Source of the DNA: Actinomycetes bacterium
GTDB taxonomy: Bacteria > Actinomycetota > Acidimicrobiia > Acidimicrobiales > RAAP-2
DNA length: 64,000 nucleotides
Assembly: GCA_021827705.1 (NCBI GenBank)
Contig: JAKAUQ010000004.1
Span: forward strand, 62,001-126,000
Reading direction: 5' to 3'
A model generated the notes under the pieces. The model made no database searches and was not told the DNA's origin. It worked only from the letters and a program-made list of their open reading frames with translations. The first letter of the stretch is position 1, and every line of letters begins with the position of its first letter. Positions 17,463 to 60,153 of the stretch are shown piece by piece. A program made the position numbers and the translations under genes.

Positions 17463-18800
17463 GTGGTGAGAACTCGTCGCATCACGATCGGGGGCGCCGT
17501 GGTGTCCCTCGTTCTGGGCATGGTGATGGCCAGCGGGGGACTGGCTCAGGGGGCACCGCCGAAGGTGCCCGGCGTCACGGCCAAGCAGGTCACGATTGGC
17601 GCGACCGTTCCCCTCACGGGCATCGCGGCGCAGGGCTACAGCGAGGTCGCCAAGGCGGCCAACGCCGTGTTCACCTGGGTCAACCAGCACGGCGGGGTCA
17701 ACGGACGCCACATCAAGTACGTCATCAAGGACGACTGCTACGGCACGCCGGGATTCGGCTGCACGGGCAATCCCAACACCGTCGCCCTGACCAAGCAGCT
17801 GATCGCCCTGCCCGTGTTCGCCACGGTCGGGTCGCTCGGCACGCCGACCCAGGACTCGGTACGCGCGCTGCTCAAGGCGAACCACGTGCCCCAGCTGTTC
17901 GTGAACTCGGGCTCCAAGGACTGGAACAACCCGAAGGTCTACCCGGGCCTGTTCGGGTGGCAGACGAGCTACACCGTCGAGAGCAAGATCCTGGGCCAGT
18001 ACATGCTGGCGCACTTCTCGGGCCAGAAGGTCTGCTTCCTCGGCCAGCACGATGACTTTGGCGCTGACGGGCTGCTCGGCCTCCAAGACGTCGGCGTCAA
18101 CCCGATCGACTCGGTCATGTACGACGTCGCGAGCCTGGTGACGGGCGGCGCGGGCTACTTCACGCCCTTCATCGCCAAGTTCCAGGCCGAGGGCTGCAAG
18201 GTCGTCTACCTGGACACGATCCCCGGAGCCACCGATGCGGCGCTCGGCAACGCCCTCGCGCTGGGCTACCACCCCCAGTGGGTGATCTCGAGCGTGGGCG
18301 CTGACGCGGTCACCGTGGACGCGGCCTTTGCCGGCAAGCCGTTCCCGGACCCCGAGATCGGGGCCATCTCCTTTAGCTACCTGCCCGCCAGCCTCGACAC
18401 CAACGTGTGGAACGGCTGGATGCGCGAGATCCTGCTCAATGACAAGGCGGACTTCCCGAACTTCACCGCCACGTCGCCCATCGACGGCAACATGGCCTAC
18501 GGCATCGGCTGGGGCGTCGCCTTCGTCGAGGCGCTGCGGGCGGCGGGGAGGAACTTCACGCGCGCCAGCTTCCTGCACACGCTGATCACGACGTCCTTCC
18601 AGACTCCGGCCCTCGTCCCGCTGCGCTACACGGCGACCAACCACCAAGGCCTCCTGGGCGGCTACATCATCCAGGTGCGCAGCGCCAGCTCGACGGGCGT
18701 GCTGGACAAGACCGTCTTCGTGACGACGTCGGCGGCCAAGTCACCAGTCACCATCACCTCGAAGTTGAGCACCAGCATTCCCAACTGGCTGCTCCATTAG
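17463..18800 (+). CDS. livK: Branched-chain amino acid-type ABC transporter, substrate-binding protein
   Basis: 445 residues. Periplasmic-binding-protein fold type I. A Sec signal covers residues 1-31 (basic MVRTRR, then VVSLVLGMVMASGG), with no lipobox Cys, so the protein is released or held another way. The mature part opens with PGVTAKQVTIGATVPLTGIAAQGYSEVAKAANAVFTWVNQHGGVNGR, the HAAT pattern. The large size suits amide/urea/aromatic binding as well as amino acids. A 95-base gap after livM holds a 6-bp hairpin (GGCCAC/GTGGCC) just before a GGGGGGAG ribosome site, which could allow separate expression. Confidence 0.9.
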   Translation: MVRTRRITIGGAVVSLVLGMVMASGGLAQGAPPKVPGVTAKQVTIGATVPLTGIAAQGYSEVAKAANAVFTWVNQHGGVNGRHIKYVIKDDCYGTPGFGCTGNPNTVALTKQLIALPVFATVGSLGTPTQDSVRALLKANHVPQLFVNSGSKDWNNPKVYPGLFGWQTSYTVESKILGQYMLAHFSGQKVCFLGQHDDFGADGLLGLQDVGVNPIDSVMYDVASLVTGGAGYFTPFIAKFQAEGCKVVYLDTIPGATDAALGNALALGYHPQWVISSVGADAVTVDAAFAGKPFPDPEIGAISFSYLPASLDTNVWNGWMREILLNDKADFPNFTATSPIDGNMAYGIGWGVAFVEALRAAGRNFTRASFLHTLITTSFQTPALVPLRYTATNHQGLLGGYIIQVRSASSTGVLDKTVFVTTSAAKSPVTITSKLSTSIPNWLLH

Positions 18801-18814
18801 AGCCACGCGGTACG

Positions 18815-18844
18815 TCACGGCGGGGCCTGCGGGCCCCGCCGTGA
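18815..18844 (+). terminator. Terminator hairpin after the liv operon
   Basis: Perfect 13-bp stem (18815-18827 with 18832-18844) around TGCG, 14 bases after the livK stop. It has no T-run, as is usual in very GC-rich actinobacteria. Confidence 0.65.
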
Positions 18845-18858
18845 CGCGTCTGGGGGAT

Positions 18859-19348
18859 GCTGGGGACCTGTTGGGAACCTGTGGACCAGCCCCCTTCGGC
18901 GGTGGCAAACACCGCCGCCGCGGTCGATAAGCCCGGCTGTTCTGGGGACAAGCTCTGGATTTGGCCCCGCCGGGCCGCTCGGCCTTGCGCGAGGTCGCGC
19001 GGCGTGCAAGAACAGGGATCGTAGTTCGCACCTCGAGGAGGGTGTCCGTCCCGCAAGGGAGGGGCGCTCACCGGGACGGGGCCCCGCAAGGGGTGCCTCC
19101 CCACCGAGGCGGGGCAACCCGCCCAGGCGTCGAAGCGGGCCACACGCAGCACACGTCGGACCGCCCTGTGCGGACCGGCGGGTGAGGCGGCTTCGGAGAC
19201 CCCGAGGGGCTGGTGTTTCACCGGTCACTCGGGGTCTTCGGCTGTCTGGGCCCGGCTCGGGGACCCGACGGGTCCACCTCGTCGATGAGCGTCGCATGTC
19301 GTGGCGCGCCGACCCCACCGCCGCGCTGACCGAGCGGTGCGTCAGCGA
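18859..19348. repeat. Tandem hairpin-rich unit, copy A
   Basis: First of two direct tandem copies with a 490-base period, about 98% identical. No convincing coding frame. It is full of short perfect stems: GGCGGTG/CACCGCC around GCAAA at 18899-18917, GGCCC/GGGCC, CCC-GCAA-GGG, CCCC-GCAA-GGGG, GCCTC/GAGGC, GGCGGG-GCAA-CCCGCC, and CCGTCCC pairing with GGGACGG. Several loops are GNRA tetraloops, as in structured RNAs. Its last ~90 bases are a dead copy of the SRAP gene 3' end. Confidence 0.85.
19257..19348 (-). pseudogene. Duplicated 3' fragment of the SRAP gene
   Basis: Matches the 3' end of the SRAP gene in copy B (LIDEVDPSGP tail region), but one base is missing (GCATGTCG against GCATCGTCG), so the frame is lost. 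It shows that the duplication began or ended inside the SRAP coding sequence. Confidence 0.75.
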
Positions 19349-19839
19349 GCTGGGTACCTGTCGGGAACCTGTGGACCAGCCCCCTTCGGCGGTGGCAAAC
19401 ACCGCCGCCGCGGTCGATAAGCCCGGCTGTTTTGGGGACAAGCTCTGGATTTGGCCCCGCCGGGCCGCTCGGCCTTGCGCGAGGTCGCGCGGCGTGCAAG
19501 AACAGGGATCGTAGTTCGCACCTCGAGGAGGGTGTCCGTCCCGCAAGGGAGGGGCGCTCACCGGGACGGGGCCCCGCAAGGGGTGCCTCCCCACCGAGGC
19601 GGGGCAACCCGCCCAGGCGTCGAAGCGGGCCACACGCAGCACACGACGGACCGTCCGACACGGACCGGCGGGTGAGGCGGCTTCGGAGACCCCGAGGGGC
19701 TGGTGTTTCACCGGTCACTCGGGGTCTTCGGCTGTCTGGGCCCGGCTCAGGGACCCGACGGGTCCACCTCGTCGATGAGCGTCGCATCGTCGTGGCGCAC
19801 CGACCCCACCGCCGCGCTGACCGGGTGGTGCACCAGCGT
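19349..19839. repeat. Tandem hairpin-rich unit, copy B
   Basis: Second copy. Differences from copy A are few and cluster at 19646-19660, where six of 15 bases differ. There the stem CCGC/GCGG of copy A (19161-19164 with 19170-19173) becomes CCGT/ACGG: a C-G pair turned into T-A by two compensating changes, while the loop changes freely. The final ~93 bases overlap the intact SRAP gene end. Confidence 0.85.
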
Positions 19840-20415
19840 GCCGGGCGCCGCGGGCCGCATCAGCGCGCTGCGGATCGCGGGGCCCGCGTCGCCGGCAGCC
19901 AGCCAGGCGTCGACGTCACCGAGCTCGAGGATGACCGGCATCCGGTCGTGGAGCCCGTCGAGGTCCACGCTCGGCGTCGTCGTGATCACGGTGCAGGCTG
20001 GCCCTTCGGATCCCGCGGGGTCGAGAAGGCCGGCCAGCGCCAGCGGCTGGCCGTCGGCGCGGTGGAAGTAGTGGGGCGTCCGCCGGCCTCCGGGTCGGTG
20101 GTCCCACTCGTAGAAGCCGTCCACGGGCACGACGCCGGGATGGTCGCGGAAGGCGCTGCGGAAGGAGGGCTTGTCGACCACCGTCTCGGCTCGGGCGTTG
20201 AACAGGACCTGGTGCGCCCCGCTCCAGCGGGGCGTCAGCCCCCAGCGGTAGCGGCCGAGGACCCGCTGGGTGCCGGTGTCGGCGACAGCGAGCAGCAGCT
20301 GGCTCGGTGCGAGGTTCCAGCGCGGCGGCACGTCGGTGGCGTCCGCGGCGAGGTCCGCGGCGAGCAGCCGGGCCAGCCGGGCCGGTGGGCTAAAGAGCGC
20401 AACGCGTCCGCACAC
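19747..20415 (-). CDS. SRAP/HMCES-family protein (SOS response-associated, abasic-site crosslinker)
   Basis: 222 residues. SRAP proteins crosslink through Cys2 to abasic sites in single-stranded DNA and shield them. Start MCGRV supplies Cys2; further conserved pieces are NLAPSQ, RWGLTPRW, NARAETV (catalytic Asn), GFYEW (Glu) and DRMPVIL with the active-site His in LHDRMP. GTG 20415 has AGGAGG upstream. The gene faces the mutasome across a 66-base region that contains the LexA box, so both arms are probably SOS-induced. Its 3' end is part of repeat copy B. Confidence 0.95.
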   Translation of the reverse strand: MCGRVALFSPPARLARLLAADLAADATDVPPRWNLAPSQLLLAVADTGTQRVLGRYRWGLTPRWSGAHQVLFNARAETVVDKPSFRSAFRDHPGVVPVDGFYEWDHRPGGRRTPHYFHRADGQPLALAGLLDPAGSEGPACTVITTTPSVDLDGLHDRMPVILELGDVDAWLAAGDAGPAIRSALMRPAAPGTLVHHPVSAAVGSVRHDDATLIDEVDPSGP

Positions 20416-20474: not shown

Positions 20475-20488
20475 CGAACATATGTTCG
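20475..20488. promoter_or_regulatory. LexA (SOS) box overlapping the imuA start codon
   Basis: CGAACATATGTTCG, a perfect 14-base palindrome matching the Gram-positive/actinobacterial LexA site CGAAC-N4-GTTCG. The imuA ATG (20482-20484) is inside it. Bound LexA would block both imuA transcription start and, 60 bases away, possibly the divergent SRAP promoter. Confidence 0.93.
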
Positions 20489-57900: not shown

Positions 57901-60153
57901 GCCGTGGGCCCGGTGACCATTGACCTCAGCGCCAGCAGCTCGGGCTTCACGTTCCAGTTCACCGCCTCCCTGTCGCTCAGCGGGTCGTGGAGCGACAGTC
58001 TCACACGGGTGAGCGGATCGCTGAGCGCCACGCTGAGTGCCAACGTGTCCATCTCCACGAGCGGGGCATTTCAGGTGGGCCTCTCGTTCTCGGGATCCGT
58101 GCAGGGCACTCTGGAGGAGTGGGTCGGTAGCACGTGCCCGTGGTACGAGGCCGGTGTACCAGCGTGTGACCCCTGGTACTGGGACACCCTGGTCAACGCC
58201 AGCGTCTCGGTGGGTGGGGCCCTCTCGCTGAGCAATAGCGGACTCACCGTGTCAGTCACACTGGATGGCTCGACCTACTCGGTGACGCTGCCCTTCAGCA
58301 GTGCCCCCACGCCTCCGGGGGCCCCCACGCCACCCACGCCCTCCGTCCAGCTCACGGCCTCGGTGAACCCCTCCAGCTGGGCCCAGCAGGTCACGTTCAC
58401 CGCAACGGTCAGTGCGACAAGCTTCGACGGCAATGGCACCGTCGCCTTCACCGACAACGGAGCAGACATCGTGGGCTGTGCCAGCCAGGCGCTCTCGGGG
58501 TCGACTGGCAGCTACAGCGCGACGTGCACGGTCTCCCAGCCGGGCACGACTGCGCACCTGCCGGTGGGTTCGGACTCGGTCCAAGCCCTCTACAGCGGCG
58601 ACTCCAACTTCGGATCGGCCAGCTCCTCTTCGGTTGCCGAGACCGTGAATGCCGCCACCCCCACCGTCGCGGTGAACCTCTCGAGCAGCTCTGTCACCTA
58701 CGGTCAGTCGGTCACCTTCACGGCTCAGGTGAGTCCGACCGACGGTGGGGGCACCGTGGACTTCCGCCAGAACGGCACGGACATCCCAGGATGCACTGCT
58801 GTCTCGCTCTCCCAGCCCACGGGGCTCGGCTTTTCGACCTATAGCGCCGCAGCGACCTGCACGGTGTCAACGTTCCCGGCCGGCAGTTACGGGGTGGAGG
58901 CCGTCTACAGCGGTGACAGCGGGTCAACGGGTGGGAGCGTCAACGGCGCCAGCTCCTCGGCGGCGAACCTGACCATCACTCCGGCCCCGCTCACCGTCAC
59001 CTCGAACGATGCGTCGATGACCTACGGCGGCGCGTACCCCGCGCTCTCGGCCAGTTACAGCGGTCTGGTGAACGGTGACACCCCGACGACCGAGAGCGCC
59101 TTCACCACCTGCACGTCGGTCGCGGCGTCGTCGGACGCGGGCAGCTACCCCATCACCTGTCGTGACACGGACCCCAATTACCGCGTCACCTACGACCAGA
59201 CCGGGACCCTGACCATCACTCCGGCCCCGCTCACCGTCACCTCGAACGATGCGTCGATGACCTACGGCGGCGCGTACCCCGCGCTCTCGGCCAGTTACAG
59301 CGGTCTGGTGAACGGTGACACCCCGACGACCGAGAGCGCCTTCACCACCTGCACGTCGGTCGCGGCGTCGTCGGACGCGGGCAGCTACCCCATCACCTGT
59401 CGTGACACGGACCCCAATTACCGCGTCACCTACGACCAGACCGGGACCTTGACCATCAAGCCTTCCGCGACGTCGACGTCGCTGACATCCTCGCTCGATC
59501 CGGCCAGCATCACTCAGACCGTCATCTACACCGCCACGGTGTCACCGGTGGCACCCGGGGGAGGCACTCCCACCGGCACGGTCGAGTTTCTCGACAACGG
59601 AACGCTGATCGGCGCTTGCAACGGGACGAAGGGGGAGACGCTCAACGGCTCGTCGCCAGACGAGGCGACCTGCACGATCACCTACCCCGCTACTGGCAAT
59701 CACTCCATCACCGTTGACTACCTGCGCACCCGTGACTACCTGGCCTCGAGCGCCGGGCCCCTCGGTGAGACCGTCGACCGGTGCCACGGCTCCACCGAGA
59801 ACTGCAACCTGAAGGGGGCTGACCTGCAGAACGCCGACCTGCAAGGTAAGAACCTGCAGGGCTCCAACCTGAAGGACGCCAACGTGGCGGGGGCCAATCT
59901 GCGTGGAGACAACCTGCAGGAGGTCAACCTGCTGGGAAGCACTGCCACGGGGGCCGACTTCCAGGGGGCCGACCTGCAGGGGGACAACCTCTTGAACGCT
60001 GCCTTCAGCGACGTGAACTTCCGGGGAGCCAACCTCACCGGTGCGAACCTGAAGGGCGCCGACCTGAACGGCGTCACCTGGTCTAACACGACATGCCCGG
60101 ACGGTACCAACAGCAACGATGACGGTGGGACGTGCGTGAACAACCTGACGTAA
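54916..60153 (+). CDS. Giant secreted surface protein: Ig-like, MBG and pentapeptide repeats
   Basis: 1745 residues. A long signal region at 1-52 (WLRLALSVTLVASVASLAAVG) is followed by Ig-like domains at about 140-375, a ~780-residue Ser/Thr/Gly-rich beta-solenoid-like stretch (about 390-1130, very low in Lys), and two Big_3-type Ig domains at about 1135-1355 (SGDSNFGS, YSGDSGSTGG). Two nearly identical 80-residue MBG domains lie at about 1356-1515, then another Ig domain, and at about 1631-1720 some 18 pentapeptide repeats (ADLQG, ANLKG type). It ends CPDGTNSNDDGGTC. No LPXTG or anchor helix is visible. It is probably a surface or matrix adhesin. GTG start after GGGGAG. Confidence 0.88.
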   Translation: MKRWSVEEVAGLSRLPRRFGDPRWLRLALSVTLVASVASLAAVGSPSSAGAAPGSHVAAPPVRGDSSTVSTPTSPELGPSAAGAAGISSIVGRPGSSGLHLVRVPSRHGRPGTISLVVAPGQSVMPLRISSPASTRAPGARAFPVPTTTALRVLGGRREVVVPAGGRVPYGEPLTIVATVAATSGHMVVNGGTVHFTENGGSVYGAGSRVASCQSVKVTAGTATCVLSALAPSTTPYRFGASYLPPTKSLIPSSVPVAHEGRVGVSPAIARLRARTGPDPLLAGDRVLTAIVTDASRGSSLPPTGTVDFALGGVPVTCAQGPADLVEQTARSSTASCEVPTPASTSTYSANYVPSAEGFTVPVPASVTVTSTAQPPSAPALSGSARRPMTTGCSTTFATLWGDSGTLTFSPFTSLGGNLASLSVTTPASTGTCSPTSSISFTSGNVSLFGANVTGSGLSGYIADGSPEPQLCFTSGNLSVYSSTASLSGAADLCFSISSASLTGGVVDQLSSATFTTSATVAIGSDVSLSLSSIQFGTGGTLPTSCTLNAPSDVWLYVDGSLGLSLSGYNGSVAASGCYDFTAKSLSLSATITGLSYSAGANGPTLSAPTVTVSATESGGTWSYSAAVTATLTAVMPSGSNLSVLASLTAVNGGFVVGVVADLQDWLGSDAASAWVGYASTAVSSFDTGVTGVGTVSLNQGINFAFALTLSSGVETALADVGLTGITTVVASGSLSSSTVTINISLSAPAGTTLFSTGGTTLVLNSLSLDLTLSETADTVSFSLNATLNTPSDGQSGDGSGSVALSGTLSAGETGGVFGASLSLSVNPSCQGDGWTNAFGITGLDVQCATLAGGVSETGPNVAFSGTILSLPSALQNVIGLQSGAVISFAFELDPFVLSFSITGSCPTCVALEPLTLAGSGAAQLIQVDSASIYIAPTGGTIGQTTYPAGYSLAFSVVLGSPLNVTVNVAASISFSPLSFSFTGTISEINLGGVLAVGPVTIDLSASSSGFTFQFTASLSLSGSWSDSLTRVSGSLSATLSANVSISTSGAFQVGLSFSGSVQGTLEEWVGSTCPWYEAGVPACDPWYWDTLVNASVSVGGALSLSNSGLTVSVTLDGSTYSVTLPFSSAPTPPGAPTPPTPSVQLTASVNPSSWAQQVTFTATVSATSFDGNGTVAFTDNGADIVGCASQALSGSTGSYSATCTVSQPGTTAHLPVGSDSVQALYSGDSNFGSASSSSVAETVNAATPTVAVNLSSSSVTYGQSVTFTAQVSPTDGGGTVDFRQNGTDIPGCTAVSLSQPTGLGFSTYSAAATCTVSTFPAGSYGVEAVYSGDSGSTGGSVNGASSSAANLTITPAPLTVTSNDASMTYGGAYPALSASYSGLVNGDTPTTESAFTTCTSVAASSDAGSYPITCRDTDPNYRVTYDQTGTLTITPAPLTVTSNDASMTYGGAYPALSASYSGLVNGDTPTTESAFTTCTSVAASSDAGSYPITCRDTDPNYRVTYDQTGTLTIKPSATSTSLTSSLDPASITQTVIYTATVSPVAPGGGTPTGTVEFLDNGTLIGACNGTKGETLNGSSPDEATCTITYPATGNHSITVDYLRTRDYLASSAGPLGETVDRCHGSTENCNLKGADLQNADLQGKNLQGSNLKDANVAGANLRGDNLQEVNLLGSTATGADFQGADLQGDNLLNAAFSDVNFRGANLTGANLKGADLNGVTWSNTTCPDGTNSNDDGGTCVNNLT
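58981..59460 (+). repeat. Tandem 240-base repeat encoding two MBG domains
   Basis: Units 58981-59220 and 59221-59460 differ at only about three bases, all at the 3' end. Each encodes 80 residues starting PAPLTVTSNDASMTYGG. Near-identity at the DNA level means a recent duplication or ongoing conversion; copy number may vary between strains. Confidence 0.97.

Follow-up and report, generated by a model that had tools for sequence, protein, structure and literature searches.

Tandem copies of a repeat in an acidimicrobial genome probably carry two genes for one structured noncoding RNA, differing at a single hairpin loop

What does an actinobacterial genome encode in a sequence that it carries twice, side by side, and almost without difference? 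In the window (the whole stretch of 64,000 nucleotides that was analysed), the preliminary description had reported two nearly identical direct copies of a unit of about 490 bases and proposed the unit as a structured RNA. The repeat was recovered as 300 nt at 18859-19158 and 19349-19648, 99% identical at a spacing of 490. The proposal stands for the inner part of the unit, which contains the RNA; by sequence comparison, the unit also takes in an upstream promoter region and a decayed duplicate of the end of a SRAP gene, to which the proposal does not extend. Each unit thus runs from a short direct-repeat array through promoter-like hexamers and an RNA of ~225 nt to ~90 bases of SRAP gene end (Table 1). 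Our best explanation overall, with a probability of roughly 0.6, is that the locus encodes one structured noncoding RNA of ~225 nt twice, in a tandem pair of genes, that this RNA is recognized through the loop of its hairpin P5, and that one of the two is a diverged sibling. That a real structured noncoding RNA gene lies here is almost certain.

Table 1 Features of the repeat locus, in positions of the window
Feature	Position	Strand	Details
Copy A, upstream direct-repeat array	18869..18951	+	TGTTGGGAA at 18869, TGTGGACCA at 18880, GGTCGATAA at 18922, TGGGGACAA at 18943; steps 11, 42, 21 nt; aligned with the genus-wide boxes TGTGGAAAA / GGTGGATAA / TGGGCAAAA
Copy A, putative promoter	18985..19013	+	-35 TTGCGC 18985-18990, 17-nt spacer, -10 AAGAAC 19008-19013; aligned with the TGGCACAGT -10 region of relatives
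Copy A, RNA (sibling, P5 loop altered)	19021..19247	+	R1 match 19021-19245, 114 bits; exact ends predicted
Copy A, P5 tip	19161..19173	+	derived loop CCTGT on stem CCGC/GCGG
Copy A, P6, terminator-like 3' hairpin	19193..19241	+	terminator role putative
Decayed duplicate of SRAP gene 3' end	19257..19348		from tandem duplication, by sequence comparison
Copy B, upstream direct-repeat array	19359..19441	+	upstream regions of copies A and B differ at 1/144 positions
Copy B, putative promoter	19475..19503	+	TTGCGC 19475-19480, AAGAAC 19498-19503; aligned as for copy A
Copy B, RNA (ancestral loop)	19511..19737	+	R1 match 19511-19735, 123 bits; exact ends predicted
Copy B, P5 tip	19651..19663	+	stem CCGT/ACGG, loop CCGAC
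Copy B, P6, terminator-like 3' hairpin	19683..19731	+	from the covariation alignment; terminator role putative
SRAP-domain gene, convergent with the RNA	19747..20415	-	PF02586, 6e-54

Over the stretches matched by the covariance model R1, the two RNA copies are identical at 219 of 225 positions, and all six differences fall into one hairpin (6/24 hairpin columns vs 0/197 in the body), which bears out the earlier observation that the differences cluster there; the two hairpin tips that it had written out are present exactly as given. The 100 nt that follow the RNA are 93/101 identical between the copies with one indel, and the piece of SRAP gene in copy A is a remnant. The genome itself (1.78 Mb in 38 contigs, 97.33% complete) carries only these two RNA copies, at a single locus. 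A separate tandem repeat, with two copies of a 240-base unit and 99% matches, lies elsewhere in the window at 58968-59458.

Both copies fold far better than expected from their composition, with z-scores of -5.56 for copy A and -5.05 for copy B, each beating all 200 dinucleotide shuffles. The GCAA (GNRA) loops on perfect stems noted from the sequence alone were recovered too: in copy B, three GNRA loops cap perfect stems of at least 4 pairs, compared with a mean of 0.15 GNRA plus UNCG caps in shuffles. To compare the strands, antisense folds were scored against sense shuffles; on that scale copy B gives -4.90 in sense vs -0.41 in antisense, and a related locus (L090) gives -4.02 vs +3.15. Sense z-scores ranged from -2.06 to -5.56 among the 12 sequences tested for strand, and at the distant locus L217 the antisense folds better (-4.36) than the sense (-2.50).

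The structure was then derived by comparison. Pattern matches to the RNA numbered 88, from which removal of 11 without a recognised start, 1 truncated and 7 exact duplicates left 69; 47 of these were under 95% identical. Leaving out L152 (wrong coordinates) and L119 (misplaced start) from these 47, and adding the two window copies together with L061, L063, L064, L065 and L067, we obtained an alignment of 52 rows (A2), made with MAFFT without use of structure, and its consensus fold was computed with RNAalifold. L069, which has a large deletion, is likewise not in A2. The RNA measures 222 to 258 nt across these relatives. In the consensus, the long-range helix P1, which pairs columns 1-13 with 144-154, and an inner helix between columns 20-24 and 134-138 enclose three hairpins, P2, P3 and P4; 3' of this domain come the P5 hairpin and a long 3' hairpin, P6. 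The structure has 83 pairs, which we count as 10 helices. Pairing is possible in 91.7% of 4163 cells and drops to 37-44% when partners are slid by 1-3 columns, a comparison that favours the structure because it was derived from the same alignment on which it is counted. P6 (helix 10, 23 pairs) has 98.8% of cells paired and a conserved interior of GAGRGGC / GGUCACUC, and helices 2, 3 and 5 are paired in only 77-78%. The loops of P2 and P3 are GNRA in 50/52 rows each, and that of P4 is GUUCGG in 41/52. Upstream of the 3' hairpin, two loci of other genomes, L225 (G356) and L217 (G220), carry a hairpin unit in several near-repeats, as if their RNA had grown through internal duplication.

Homologues with further paired changes, to which the preliminary description had looked for support, are plentiful. 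In A2, 51 of the 83 pairs are changed on both sides, compared with 29.2 in shuffles, as are 358 cells vs 113; the covariation score is 0.295 vs 0.159, and none of 500 shuffles came as high on any of five measures. An earlier alignment of 30 sequences had 30/68 pairs changed on both sides. The single C-G to T-A replacement between the window copies, first read as compensatory, is upheld as well: the pair, at columns 178/184, is U-A in 49 rows and C-G in 3. The initial account had left open whether selection acts on RNA or on a cruciform. RNA is favoured, since copy B and L090 fold well only in sense and since 52/52 rows retain a G-U pair (columns 223/246), which DNA could not form without a mismatch. 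The molecule under selection is thus most likely the + strand RNA, and by comparison it is a structured RNA in which P1 encloses three hairpins and is followed by P5 and P6.

The loop of P5 is nearly invariant. It reads UCCGACA (TCCGACA in DNA) in 48/52 rows; the remaining four rows are upstream copies of tandem pairs, from the window and three close relatives. Among all 88 pattern matches, CCGAC was found in context in 82 (81 by script over the match plus the 420 bases before it, and L084 by eye); the other six comprise two chance hits, a locus with the 3' hairpin only (L121) and three upstream copies of tandem pairs. The motif is kept also in the more distant loci L100, L104, L108, L133 and L134. 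Judged from the relatives, therefore, the loop of copy B is the nearly invariant form and that of copy A is derived, and the initial impression that the 5-base loop had simply drifted is to be given up. We looked at a kissing contact in which the P5 loop (CCGA) would pair with the P4 loop (UCGG) and abandoned it, because P4 is capped by GCAA in the window group and yet its downstream copy keeps CCGAC. The conservation itself does not tell RNA-RNA from RNA-protein recognition.

How far does the RNA reach? A blastn search with the repeat unit gave matches in 33/61 genomes: its own, 29/36 of the same genus (28/36 after inspection, G032 with locus L031 being without the 3' hairpin) and 3/24 of other families, these short and partial. 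R1 matched 13/298 genomes of the order; nine belong to the same genus and span the model, and four belong to other genera and match in the 3' hairpin only. A second model, R2, built on the 3' part, matched 13 same-genus genomes including two missed by blastn (G016, G019), and no same-genus genome appeared among the non-matching genomes listed, which start with other genera. At E <= 0.01 per genome, R2 matched 42/397 genomes of the order and 21/396 of the phylum, with ~4 chance hits expected per search. A pattern scan of named species genomes returned 82 stretches, and 73 of the 80 listed titles bear actinobacterial labels; clear chance hits among the 88 pattern matches are those in Myxococcus (L096) and Rhodopirellula (L131). 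Among 26 R2 relatives whose loci were printed, CCGAC occupies the place of the P5 loop only in L218 (G440) and, weakly, in L248 of the window's own genome; L222, L223, L227 and L228, misplaced or empty, fall outside that inspection. Since few of the class-wide R2 loci have CCGAC, we limit the claim to genus g1, a genus of Acidimicrobiaceae, and make it more weakly for G440, G228 (L133), G251 (L108), L100, L104 and L134. A peat habitat is suggested by isolate labels, among them bog, palsa and fen.

Several further loci were seen in these searches. L248 (G000 C28:42907-42995, minus strand; R2 27.5 bits) is another site of the own genome that carries CCGTCCGACACGG; it lies ~280 bases after an RNase P RNA match and may be inside a gene. 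Two genomes of the same class, G808 (L235, L246, L249) and G502 (L230, L247), have hairpin-rich stretches with two or three neighbouring R2 matches and no CCGAC loop, with CGCGAAA boxes upstream of L230, L247 and L249; these are possibly a wider family, or look-alikes. The RNA also occurs on contigs labelled Saccharibacteria, Burkholderiales or Acidobacteria (L106, L128, L092, L139, L143), which are probably mislabelled or mixed bins.

The gene is usually single and is paired in two groups of genomes. In the first, the copies lie 490 (window), 499 (G333), 511 (G335) and 2,056 (G334) apart; in the second (G336-G339), 486-601 apart. All downstream copies of the first group carry CCGAC. In the upstream copies the loop is CCTGT in the window and G333, TCCG in G335 and, across the loop columns, TCTTCGA in G334, with the stem pairable. 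The RNA bodies of each pair are closer to each other (0, 3, 10 and 19 differences of 197) than to any body of the other genomes (4-33). The hairpin, by contrast, sorts by position: copy A of the window equals copy 1 of G333 (0/24) and copy B equals copy 2 (0/24), while A and B differ at 6/24. Because the hairpin type follows copy position and not genome, at least the duplication shared by the window and G333 predates the split of their lineages, and the bodies appear to have been homogenised after the split, the loop excepted. Upstream regions differ within pairs at 1/144 positions in the window, 13/144 in G333, 39/144 in G335 and 48/144 in G334; those of the window are homogenised, those of G333 in part, and those of G335 and G334 are not, between-genome distances being sometimes smaller. 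In G336-G339 the paired RNAs are identical (250/250) and the next 100 nt are 46-76% identical, so that these RNA genes were homogenised or recently doubled.

We read the persisting loop difference as selection for two loops. Alternatively, it could be the slow loss of one loop, as an early stage of decay of the upstream copy; the changed loop occurs in four related genomes only, two of which share the same derived loop. Near-identical copies that differ at one hairpin loop suggest two RNAs with different partners. That the P5 loop is the recognition element and that the sibling is functionally distinct is an evenly balanced proposition.

Upstream of the RNA, 72 unique regions were compared with 100 rounds of single-base shuffles. 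The TGGCACAGT -10 region is present in 43/72, and three boxes precede it: TGTGNAWAA at -150..-136 (38/72), GGTGGAWAA at -98..-84 (36/72) and TGGGYAWAA at -76..-60 (52/72), motifs that the shuffles contain at most once. Their spacings of 53-55 and 21-22 are near whole helical turns, and the boxes may form a genuine array that controls the RNA gene. In reverse complement they fit TTWTNCACA in 38/72 regions, and in the other orientation this motif was found in none of the 72. Since the same kind of 9-mer (TTATCCACA or TTTTCCACA) stands just before the dnaA match in 11/11 loci, DnaA is a candidate binder and regulator; the window's own boxes are degenerate. At another relative, L221 (G198), the upstream region shows a clear direct-repeat array of three 11-base steps, TGGGGATGTCG / TGGGGACGACG / TGGGGATGACG.

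The gene upstream of the RNA varies between genomes and encodes a periplasmic binding protein in the window. The convergent SRAP gene (cluster C0) is present in 26/30 locus entries, up to 3.5 kb from the RNA and not always as the next gene. Clusters C2 and C1 follow SRAP in 21 loci each; the window's C1 encodes an error-prone DNA polymerase (NF004225), with ImuA' (NF058630) before it, and C2 (20430-22217), for which no model matched, would be ImuB by position only. SRAP is probably a matter of conserved synteny and not part of the RNA system. Just before imuA', at 20475-20488, lies the palindrome CGAACATATGTTCG, which resembles what we take to be the actinobacterial LexA (SOS) box.

With respect to known RNAs, the preliminary description had recognised no family, and our searches agree with it. 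Rfam 15 at the gathering score found one tRNA only in the whole window, leaving the RNA unmatched; the 11 matches in 18780-19900 at E up to 10 were all below the gathering score; and a search of 13 related loci with E extended to 0.5 gave two tRNAs and two sub-gathering hits outside the RNA, sX6 (E 0.0098, upstream of the RNA at L171) and tmRNA (E 0.27, L070). No earlier description of the RNA was among the papers listed in searches of the open-licence literature. A divergent RNase P, SRP RNA or tmRNA was discarded, as the genome has separate above-cut-off matches for each elsewhere. The 6C RNA of actinobacteria exposes two C-rich loops; the RNA here resembles it as an actinobacterial sRNA with an exposed C-containing loop, but has one UCCGACA loop and no Rfam match. 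As adjacent, highly similar RNA genes, the pair resembles PrrF1/PrrF2 of Pseudomonas aeruginosa, with trans-acting regulation here only proposed; unlike those, the present siblings differ at one otherwise near-invariant hairpin loop and are homogenised in the rest, and we claim no relation in sequence or structure. The genes are adjacent and near-identical, as expected of tandem sibling sRNAs, each with a putative working promoter.

Might the RNA instead bind RNA polymerase, as a divergent RNA of the 6S or Ms1 type, taking the place of 6S in this lineage? The gene is standalone and genus-wide with an aligned promoter, and the 6S covariance model (RF00013) found no match in the one genome searched, its own, with controls matched in 5/14. 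6S RNA forms a single long hairpin with a large central bubble; the RNA here is a branched set of hairpins, without any Rfam match. Ms1 reportedly occurs in 824 actinobacterial species, where 6S is said to be lacking (PMC9130861), and like it and 6S, our RNA is a standalone actinobacterial structured RNA of similar size. It departs from Ms1 in its branched fold, its UCCGACA loop and its neighbours: HAD hydrolase, Fic, oxidoreductase or CpaE genes are listed next to Ms1 (PMC9130861), none of which is at the window locus with its periplasmic binding protein, SRAP, ImuA' and error-prone polymerase; upstream neighbours in the relatives are only partly named. We regard a polymerase-binding RNA as unlikely. 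A riboswitch, attenuator or 3'-UTR structure of a neighbouring gene would agree with the intergenic position and the terminator-like hairpin at the end, but SRAP is convergent in 26/26 entries that have it, the upstream gene changes from genome to genome, and the RNA gene has a conserved promoter region of its own; such a cis element is very unlikely, and the RNA very probably acts in trans.

Protein sponges of the CsrB/RsmZ type consist of several hairpins joined by GGA-containing linkers, and the present RNA shares both traits, with 8.1 GGA per RNA in sense vs 3.2 in antisense over the 52 sequences. CsrA (PF02599), however, was found in 1/10 family genomes with the RNA and in 4/18 searched, not in the own genome, and the hairpin loops are GNRA, GUUCGG and UCCGACA, which do not present GGA; with CsrA missing in most carriers, a CsrA sponge is largely refuted and the GGA-linker reading highly improbable, and a sponge for a protein other than CsrA is possible. 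The upstream boxes would also suit an element acting as DNA, be it a cruciform, a replication origin or a site that titrates DnaA. Against this, G-U pairs are conserved and the antisense fold of the window copy stays at shuffle level. Moreover, in six printed dnaA loci the gap after dnaA holds a CCTACTACTAC stretch and ATCCACA-type boxes, an arrangement that we take to be that of an ordinary replication origin; strict boxes are few there (1-4 per 4.3-kb locus). The origin more likely lies after dnaA than at the RNA locus, where it was rejected, and a DNA-level role of any kind is extremely improbable. Finally, long open frames do run through this stretch (298 aa, - strand) and the sequence is a repeat, as a coding or mobile element might be. 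The RNA is not coding, because no frame is open through it in more than 18/52 sequences, and its length varies as given above; the own genome has two copies at one locus, each of 17 genomes has at most 2 matches over 100 nt, and no matches were found in viral contigs (by pattern), plasmids or phages. A protein or small-peptide gene or a mobile repeat thus has next to no probability.

Returning to the two tandem RNA genes, we propose that each would be transcribed alone from its own upstream promoter and end at P6, and that the RNA would act in trans, with P1-P4 and P6 as a stable scaffold presenting the P5 loop to its partner, which may be a protein or an mRNA that contains GUCGG(A). The upstream sibling would have lost or exchanged this partner, with selection keeping both kinds. 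Tentatively, and with somewhat less than even confidence, we regard the RNA as a new family of Acidimicrobiia whose defining features are the UCCGACA loop and the conserved interior of its 3' hairpin, reaching other genera of Acidimicrobiaceae (G228, G251 and G440) and possibly further families with hairpin-rich, sometimes tandem relatives; the doubled gene of the window and its close relatives would be a two-RNA system in which gene conversion equalises the scaffolds and selection separates the loops. Most knowledge of Acidimicrobiia comes from metagenome bins. The RNA family can be found easily, and its single conserved loop is an obvious site for tests. Sibling pairs with one exchanged loop are a natural experiment on loop recognition and bear also on how paralogous RNAs escape homogenisation.
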